Of a stretch of DNA of 64,000 nucleotides, positions 52,889-64,000 are shown piece by piece (the stretch's first letter is position 1; every line of letters begins with the position of its first letter). Both the position numbers and the translations under genes were made by a program. The DNA comes from Chromohalobacter marismortui. Lineage in GTDB: Bacteria; Pseudomonadota; Gammaproteobacteria; Pseudomonadales; Halomonadaceae. Below the pieces are notes generated by a model, which saw only the letters and a list, made by a program, of their open reading frames with translations, was not told where the DNA came from and searched no databases. The DNA is taken from NCBI RefSeq assembly GCF_004364315.1, contig NZ_SOBR01000002.1:496001-560000 (forward strand). The letters run 5' to 3'.

Positions 52889-53086
52889 TCAAACGCTTGA
52901 ACCGCCGTCTTCACCATCGGTTTTCTCGCGCTGAATGCGCTGGTAAATCTCTTCGCGATGTACGGCTACGTCCTTGGGTGCATTGACACCGATACGGACC
53001 TGATTTCCTTTCACTCCTAGGACCGTAACGGTAATGTCGTCGCCAATCATCAGTGTTTCACCGACGCGACGGGTCAGGATGAGCAT
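52889..53086 (-). CDS. csrA: Carbon storage regulator CsrA/RsmA
   Basis: 65 residues. [20 protein letters not shown] is the invariant N-terminus, with R44 (in [13 protein letters not shown]), the key RNA-contact residue, present. The dimer binds GGA motifs in mRNA leaders, usually blocking translation. The start 53086 has an AAGGAG site that itself contains GGA, and another GGA is upstream, consistent with autoregulation. A CsrB-like antagonist RNA lies at 62975-63214 in this window. Confidence 0.97.
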
Positions 53087-62566: not shown

Positions 62567-62890
62567 ATGACATTCGTCGTCACCGAAAACTGCATTCGCT
62601 GTAAATACACCGACTGCGTCGAAGTCTGTCCGGTGGACTGCTTCTACGAAGGCCCCAATTTTCTGGTGATCCACCCCGACGAGTGCATCGACTGCGCACT
62701 GTGCGAGCCGGAATGCCCCGCCGAAGCGATCTATTCGGAAGACGAATTACCCGACGACCAGACGTCTTTTATCGAGCTCAACGCCGAACTTTCCGAAGTC
62801 TGGCCCAATATCAGCGAGAAGAAGGACCCGCTTCCCGACGCTGAGCAATGGGACGGTAGCGCTGACAAGCTGCAATACCTCGAACGCTGA
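62567..62890 (+). CDS. fdxA: 7Fe ferredoxin (FdxA)
   Basis: 107 residues. Cysteines at 9, 17 and 50 fit the [3Fe-4S] cluster, and those at 21, 40, 43 and 46 the [4Fe-4S] cluster (Azotobacter FdI layout). C12 and C25 are extra. The C-terminal tail (LSEVWPNI..., [12 protein letters not shown]) is typical of FdxA. It is a small soluble electron carrier. It follows mutS, as in Pseudomonas. Confidence 0.95.
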
Positions 62891-62974: not shown

Positions 62975-63214
62975 CAAAAAAAGCGGCCCGAAGGCCGCTG
63001 CATCCCATTCATCCCTGAGCGGGTCCCTCCGCTCGACTCTCTGAGTGCGCTCCATGCCTGCCATGGGCTCCCTCCACGACAGGCGCACCCTGCTGCATCC
63101 CAATCTGCCTCCAGGTAAGCAATGCCTTTGCTCATCCTGTGCAGACGCATTGTTGCGGAAGCCGTGGCAGGCCTCAACCGGGCCCATCCCCTGACGTTTC
63201 CCCGAGAGCGTCGG
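62975..63214 (-). ncRNA. CsrB/RsmZ-class regulatory RNA (antagonist of CsrA)
   Basis: A minus-strand stretch of about 235-240 bases holds twelve GGA motifs, several in the CsrA-preferred context: CAGGATG, CAGGGATG, TTGGGATG, ATGGGATG. The first stem (CCCTG...GACG / CGTC...CAGGG) puts a GGGGA in its loop. It ends in AGCGGCC-TTCG-GGCCGCT followed by seven T. A TATATT -10 box lies just upstream, and a GacA-type site about 110 bases upstream. Its place beside fdxA matches rsmZ of Pseudomonas. It should sequester CsrA. The reading frame across it has no ribosome site or family resemblance. Confidence 0.85.
62982..62999 (-). terminator. Intrinsic terminator of the CsrB-like RNA
   Basis: AGCGGCC/GGCCGCT arms with a four-base loop, read TTCG on the minus strand, then TTTTTTTGTG. 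It faces the fdxA terminator across about 30 bases. Confidence 0.9.
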
Positions 63215-63220
63215 GCAGGG

Positions 63221-63226
63221 AATATA
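63221..63226 (-). promoter_or_regulatory. -10 box of the CsrB-like RNA
   Basis: TATATT on the minus strand, 7 bases before the presumed 5' end. No proper -35 is present at 16-18 bases, as expected for a promoter that depends on an activator. Confidence 0.55.
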
Positions 63227-63314: not shown

Positions 63315-63332
63315 TGTACGAAATGTCTTACA
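63315..63332 (-). promoter_or_regulatory. GacA/UvrY-type upstream activating site
   Basis: On the minus strand TGTAAG-N6-CGTACA, which matches the GacA consensus TGTAAG-N6-CTTACA at 11 of 12 fixed positions. A second TGTAAG half-site lies at 63349-63354, 22 bases (two turns) further upstream. The gacA gene is not in the window. Confidence 0.7.
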
Positions 63333-63397
63333 AACAAAGAATCCCAAACTTACACACTTCCCGCAGAGCACCGCCCGCACGAGGCATCAAACAAAAC

Positions 63398-63415
63398 GGC
63401 GGCCCTGTGGCCGCC
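63398..63415 (-). terminator. Intrinsic terminator of eno
   Basis: GGCGGCC/GGCCGCC arms with a four-base loop; the minus strand continues GTTTTGTTTG. It lies 47 bases past the eno stop and separates eno from the small RNA region. Confidence 0.8.
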
Positions 63416-63461
63416 GCGAAGCTGCAAACGTCATGTCATAAGGACGAGTAGTGTACCGGTA

Positions 63462-64000
<539 letters not shown>

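Follow-up and report, generated by a model that had tools for sequence, protein, structure and literature searches.

The DNA between fdxA and eno raises the question of whether it encodes a small RNA that antagonizes CsrA and, if so, where this RNA begins, to which class it belongs and how widely it occurs. In the window, by which we mean the whole 64-kb stretch of DNA analyzed, mutS and fdxA (ending at 62890) lie on the plus strand and are followed by a GGA-rich block on the minus strand and by eno, also on the minus strand, from 63462. A sequence-only reading had proposed an RNA of the CsrB/RsmZ class here, with twelve GGA motifs, and we obtained the same count for the 246 minus-strand bases from 63220 to 62975. 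Dinucleotide shuffles of this stretch contained 7.7 GGA on average (36 of 2000 attained 12) and mononucleotide shuffles 6.3 (16 of 2000); taken alone, the count is only moderately unusual. Over all 246-base segments of the 64 kb, the maximum was 12 GGA on the minus strand and 11 on the plus strand, and all 48 minus-strand segments with 12 fall at the fdxA-eno locus. The "several" CAGGATG-like sites of that reading proved too loose a description, one true CAGGATG being present (one AGGA counted). Our preferred reading, to which we assign a probability of about 92%, is that the minus strand from 63142 to 62975 encodes a conserved GGA-hairpin RNA in the rsmZ position, about 167 nt long, predicted to be controlled by GacS/GacA (BarA/UvrY) and likely to act as a CsrA sponge. 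The features on which this reading is built are listed in Table 1.

Table 1. Positions of known and predicted features of the fdxA-eno locus, and of csrA, in the window.
Feature	Position	Strand	Remarks
csrA, presumed target of the RNA	52889..53086	-	NCBIfam NF002469, 121.5 bits (cut-off 73)
fdxA	62567..62890	+	convergent neighbour; NCBIfam FdxA_Protbact, 179.4 bits (cut-off 135)
Predicted CsrA-sponge RNA, RsmZ-type, about 167 nt, 10 GGA	62975..63142	-	genus identity, covarying structure, covariance-model matches
Intrinsic terminator	62976..62999	-	7-bp stem, TTCG loop, T run (AGCGGCC-TTCG-GGCCGCT)
Hairpin GAGCGG-AGGGAC-CCGCTC	63017..63034	-	ANGGAN hexaloop (shape of a CsrA/RsmE site); 6 of 6 pairs change on both sides
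Central double stem	63044..63089	-	63089-63086 with 63047-63044, 63084-63079 with 63061-63056; GGA at 63075, 63071, 63053
Stem with two GGA, 5′ part in the sequence-only reading	63143..63214	-	predicted upstream DNA, not RNA; 59.6% identity in 10 genus genomes
Predicted -10 element AACAAT	63149..63154	-	often CACAAT in other genera; 17-nt gap to TTGAGG
Predicted -35 element TTGAGG	63172..63177	-	promoter form in family loci
GacA/UvrY box TGTAAGACATTTCGTACA	63315..63332		one mismatch to TGTAAG-N6-CTTACA
Terminator-like hairpin 3′ of eno	63396..63417	-	between eno and the predicted RNA promoter
eno (3′ part, leaves the window)	63462..64000	-	next gene upstream, on the same strand as the RNA; TIGR01060, 268.6 bits for the partial protein (cut-off 300)

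To delimit the RNA, we compared ten genomes of the genus. Mean pairwise identity was 97.5% over 62975-63142, the conserved block beginning in the genus alignment at GCACAGG (63142), whereas it was 59.6% over 63143-63214. The interval between the GacA box and the -35 element was 65.4% identical, and the last part of the eno coding sequence 82.9%. Based on this difference between the block and the DNA 5′ to it, together with the box spacing described below, we predict an RNA running from 63142 to about 62976, and thus of about 167 nt with 10 GGA rather than 240 nt with 12. An RNA "nearer CsrC in size", as proposed earlier, does not agree with this prediction, and the 5′ stem with GGA in its loop would fall in the poorly conserved DNA, upstream of the better-supported promoter.

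The sequence-only reading had overlooked the GacA/UvrY box. In Pseudomonas, both rsmY and rsmZ have such sequences as their upstream activating sequences, according to a legend in PMC4353343. In the 64 kb, the box at 63332-63315 is the sole match with at most one mismatch (0.01 expected; 1 of 100 shuffles gave any), 0.43 boxes being expected per window when two mismatches are allowed, and its mean identity in the ten genus genomes is 92.3%. It lies 172 nt from the predicted RNA 5′ end at 63142; in four Pseudomonas controls, the 5′ ends of RsmZ called by Rfam lie 162-174 nt past the box. Outside the genus, 56 of the 100 family slots contained a box with two mismatches or fewer; within it, a search limited to 260 nt upstream of the conserved block found one in all ten genomes. 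We then asked where GGA motifs fall relative to the box in 56 non-giant loci, that is, the box-bearing family loci, genus included, with the g4 genomes and Cobetia set apart. A GGA occurs 160-185 nt past the box in 54 of these (the exceptions being G099 and G023) and in 8 of 8 Pseudomonas loci, drawn from 20 that show a box, while six other bands of equal width, from 20 to 160 nt past the box, contain GGA in 5-18 of the 56 loci. A reversed control pattern of the box matches in 6 of 41 genomes; the box alone is therefore weak evidence and it is the spacing that carries weight. An exact GacA box found at G000:C13:15786 (L120) was rejected as a further candidate, no GGA-rich RNA being visible beside it.

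A promoter of the form TTG-N3-N16-18-NANA[AC]T was found just upstream of the block in 55 of 66 box-bearing family loci, compared to a mean of 0.6 and a maximum of 5 in 200 mononucleotide shuffles, and in none of the 66 loci in the two adjoining stretches. The predicted TTGAGG and AACAAT elements of the window take this form. The TATATT previously taken for the -10 box occurs in only 2 of the 10 genus genomes and lies upstream of this better-supported promoter.

Support for a structured RNA came from an alignment (A1) of 31 sequences from 10 genera, hand-picked to spread the genera from the 50 of 56 non-giant box loci that passed length and start filters. RNAalifold returned a consensus of 23 pairs, 17 of which change on both sides. 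In this consensus 97.5% of cells are paired, versus 83.5% in shuffled alignments, which ignore relatedness, and 36-52% in slid versions, which are the fairer control. Double changes were seen in 111 cells versus 30.5 after shuffling, and none of 500 such relatedness-blind shuffles attained any of five structure measures. Nine of the ten pairs of the central double stem change on both sides and the tenth is invariant. Of the 31 sequences, 28 have an ANGGAN loop in the last hairpin ahead of the terminator; a hexaloop hairpin of this type is bound by RsmE according to a review (PMC7652899), which also credits CsrB with 22 GGA. The strong terminator with seven T noted from the sequence was recovered as a hairpin with a T run, the first of the seven T sitting within the stem.

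GGA motifs recur in the relatives, a comparison that the sequence-only reading had left to be made. The GGA at 63053 is present in all 31 aligned sequences, and those at 63026 and 63005 (30/31 each), 63100 (28/31), 63137 (26/31) and 63014 (12/31) are found in the same alignment column. Exact columns are shared less by the GGA at 63112, 63075 and 63071 (4/31 each) and 63030 (6/31); within three columns, the figures become 29/31 for 63112, 25/31 for both 63075 and 63071, and 6/31 for 63030. Folded as a single sequence, the RNA has four GGA that are unpaired at 0.97 or above; for the other six the value is 0.33-0.60. The partial pairing modelled for these six would be a point against ten free CsrA sites.

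How far the RNA extends in the family was examined with a covariance model, R1, built from the alignment. FdxA is present in 119 of 121 family genomes, and we analyzed a stretch of up to 1.7 kb downstream of fdxA from each of 100 genomes that do not belong to the genus, plus the ten genus genomes; second fdxA copies were left out, as were G028, G050, G072, G090, G108 and four genomes with fdxA near contig ends (G044, G076, G118 and G120). The eno gene was found in 80 of the 100 stretches. The family set could be assigned to Halomonadaceae, and its Cobetia, Larsenimonas, Modicisalibacter and Salinicola members to their genera, from four species-labelled loci whose sequence is the same as in four of its genomes. 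R1 matched with E<1e-10 in 87 of the 121 genomes, from 16 of 24 genera, 56 of the 87 not having been used to build the model; the other 34 gave no match at this level. In a set of 80 fdxA loci, R1 finds the RNA at fdxA in Halomonas lysinitropha, Halomonas sp. M20, Modicisalibacter tunisiensis, Vreelandella jeotgali, Cobetia amphilecti and Larsenimonas suaedae, with no match in the two Salinicola loci of the set or in Modicisalibacter ilicicola. In G007, G038 and G018 the slot is either short or poor in GGA. In genus g16, R1 matches with E of about 1e-12 occur 16-22 kb from fdxA (G016:C7:19838-19955 and G037:C1:1469693-1469810), and the RNA there seems to have parted from fdxA.

To which class does this RNA belong? 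At gathering thresholds, where Rfam called RsmZ in each of four Pseudomonas fdxA loci (72-129 bits) and E. coli csrB (380.4 bits), no family matched at the locus. A permissive search returned RF00166 (PrrB_RsmZ) over 63134-62974 with 15.1 bits (threshold 44, E 0.55) and seven further weak matches, mostly to nearby terminator hairpins, and RF00018 (CsrB, gathering threshold 71) had no match at the locus. Gathering scores were not reached in any of 14 fdxA-side loci (nine from Halomonadaceae, two from Marinomonas and three from the window's genus, including the window's own), nor in two regions elsewhere in the genome of the window. In nine of the 14 (L021, L027, L029, L032, L033, L063, L088, L091 and L094), the RNA is located by R1 or by the alignment. 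Since the RsmZ score was under threshold, Rfam alone could not decide the class.

The RNA can be compared with known CsrA antagonists. Like RsmZ of Pseudomonas (PrrB, RF00166), the RNA lies beside fdxA on the opposite strand and convergent with it, at the box spacing of rsmZ, and carries GGA motifs; it also ends in an intrinsic terminator. The statement that Pseudomonas rsmZ lies next to fdxA was borne out: the two are neighbours on opposite strands in each of the four control loci, and a legend in PMC4353343 places both fdxA and mutS in the rsmZ region. Unlike RsmZ, for which the Rfam matches in the four controls measure 125-135 nt, the RNA is about 167 nt long, and its other flank is eno, where the same legend lists rpoS and nlpD. 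With CsrB of Escherichia coli (RF00018) it shares many GGA sites and a genome encoding UvrY and BarA homologues, but E. coli CsrB has 369 nt with 22 GGA. It can also be likened, by description rather than by sequence, to CsrR2 of Alcanivorax dieselolei, which the part of PMC9788540 considered here presents as a CsrA-related RNA beside a ferredoxin gene, its authors drawing the fdxA-rsmZ parallel; CsrR2 differs in being reported there with six unpaired GGA.

The RNA is thus best called a positional counterpart of RsmZ, not filed in RF00166. Many GGA, an ANGGAN loop, an upstream box, and CsrA and two-component homologues in the genome are all found, and both the assignment to CsrA antagonists of the CsrB/RsmZ type and the link to fdxA appear well supported, the class call of the sequence-only reading being likely right. 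Position, orientation, box spacing, covarying GGA hairpins and conservation in the family speak for that call; the size, promoter and 5′ stem given with it, and the idea of a sole antagonist, were not supported.

Other explanations of the locus can be weighed against these data. A longer RNA of 240 nt, starting after the TATATT near 63226 and including the 5′ stem in the sponge, would make use of a TATATT and a foldable 5′ segment that do exist, and the 246-nt form has a folding z-score of -1.98 against shuffles. The shorter form folds better against its own shuffles (-2.79), however, and the rarity of TATATT in the genus, the low identity of the 5′ part and the family-wide spacing from box to GGA, which fits the short form, make the longer one improbable. 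Still less probable is that the block is a fragment processed from the 3′ UTR of the eno mRNA, with no gene of its own: it does lie downstream of eno on the same strand, but a terminator-like hairpin follows eno at 63417-63396, and the conserved promoter form and the GacA box stand between eno and the block. We give almost no credence to a small open frame at 63244-62960, which would encode a protein of 94 residues. This frame is open in the window, and the frame through the block is open in 7 of 9 relatives, one of them frame-shifted; it nevertheless meets stop codons within the block in two relatives (L092 and L093) and is shifted by a one-base deletion in L089, and base changes follow the base pairs. 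With the frame broken in 3 of 9 relatives, the coding reading was rejected.

A different question is whether the RNA is an RsmZ orthologue or has an independent origin and converged on the role of CsrA sponge, in which case it would still work alike. Cross-scores are weak in both directions, RF00166 against the locus RNA as given above and R1 against Pseudomonas rsmZ loci, where its best score was 18 bits; a Moraxellaceae locus scored 19.5, and a plus-strand match came close at 14.8. The case for common descent with RsmZ is therefore one of position and promoter rather than of sequence. Against convergence, the neighbour, the strand, the box and the box spacing are all as for Pseudomonas rsmZ, and we consider an independent origin unlikely, though distinctly less so than the explanations above.

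The partners that an RsmZ-type sponge would need were searched for with E. coli proteins as queries. The csrA gene at 53086-52889 is the one CsrA match in the genome and lies beside genes for aspartate kinase and tRNAs. The best UvrY match is 52% identical, with uvrC directly after it; its best NCBIfam family is UvrY/SirA/GacA, at 258 bits for a cut-off of 280, scored on a frame that lacked about 20 residues at its start. For BarA, the best match shows 37% identity across 728 residues. We propose that phosphorylated UvrY/GacA would bind the box at 63332-63315 and thereby switch on a sigma-70-type promoter, with transcription starting about 172 nt beyond the box. The resulting RNA could present several CsrA dimers with as many as ten GGA sites, and the target mRNAs would no longer be repressed once CsrA is sequestered.

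A second GGA-rich candidate RNA was seen elsewhere in the window's genome, at G000:C1:559005-559124 on the minus strand (L006 3125-3006; L242). It scores 32.3 with RF00166, below the threshold of 44 but above the 15.1 of the fdxA-eno RNA. Nine of the ten genus genomes contain it, and a search with a shorter core added 7 of the 121 family genomes. It looks RsmY-like, and it would be a second CsrA antagonist; the fdxA-eno RNA, earlier presented as "the" antagonist of this organism, is probably not the sole one.

The same slot varies widely in content between relatives. In Salinicola, the RNA and the box are absent from the slot in 13 of 13 genomes (g3; slot of 90-402 nt), weak R1 matches occurring elsewhere in 4 of the 13 (E 9e-7 to 3e-3). 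In all six Cobetia genomes (G006, G030, G045, G057, G068 and G079), a box is followed after 168-187 nt by a stretch that measures 692-729 nt and contains 34-40 GGA, the start of the stretch having been set at 8 nt before the first GGA; E. coli csrB has 369 nt and 22 GGA by the same measure. The Cobetia stretch ends in the sole terminator-like site found in it, one genome having two internal T runs, and that of Cobetia amphilecti (L027, 3745-3020 minus) folds at a z-score of -6.4 against 20 shuffles. R1 matches four times in a row in Larsenimonas suaedae (G031; L063, 2992-3721 minus) and three times in a row in G046, while G007, of the Larsenimonas genus group, has no R1 match in the slot. These rows measure 661-699 nt with 25-26 GGA, and no box with two mismatches or fewer was found for them. 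A terminator-like site is present in their last module only, the inner hairpins being without the T run that closes it. The stretches of about 0.7 kb in Cobetia and the fused modules of Larsenimonas may each be one transcript. The g4 genomes have 26-50 GGA in the 1.7 kb past fdxA and one or two boxes. In one of them, G004 (L221), the 1.7 kb downstream of fdxA contain GacA boxes and GGA clusters, two of each, an arrangement that suggests duplication of the sponge gene; no eno was found in these 1.7 kb.

One idea, on which we are evenly divided, is that the fdxA-eno slot is a site where the sponge grows and shrinks by GGA modules, from loss in Salinicola, through 10 sites in 167 nt in the window's genus and four fused modules in Larsenimonas, to one RNA of about 0.7 kb in Cobetia with 34-40 sites, nearly double those of E. 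coli CsrB, the length of the RNA tuning the buffering of CsrA.

These data bear on a gap in the description of the Gac/Csr system in halomonads. In Halomonas anticariensis, GacS-GacA controls quorum sensing, exopolysaccharide and biofilm, and the CsrA-mimic sRNA is given as "Unknown" in the corresponding table of a 2020 review (both from the section of PMC7366521 cited here). CsrA of Halomonas hydrothermalis has been modelled, with its pathways listed as uncharacterized in the pertinent part of PMC12889724. No such RNA is described for Halomonas in the sections consulted of PMC7366521, PMC12889724, PMC13414033, PMC9049629 and PMC4465626, a sample of the open-access literature that does not prove absence. 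The RNA predicted here, likely a CsrA sponge of the RsmZ type, is ordinary in kind and useful in place, and the size range in its relatives was unexpected. The locus provides a concrete sponge candidate for much of the Halomonadaceae, below the Rfam threshold, and because it comes with a predicted promoter and GacA box, the missing mimic-sRNA step becomes directly testable. The range of sizes in one syntenic slot, in turn, offers a natural series on the number of CsrA sites versus sponge capacity.
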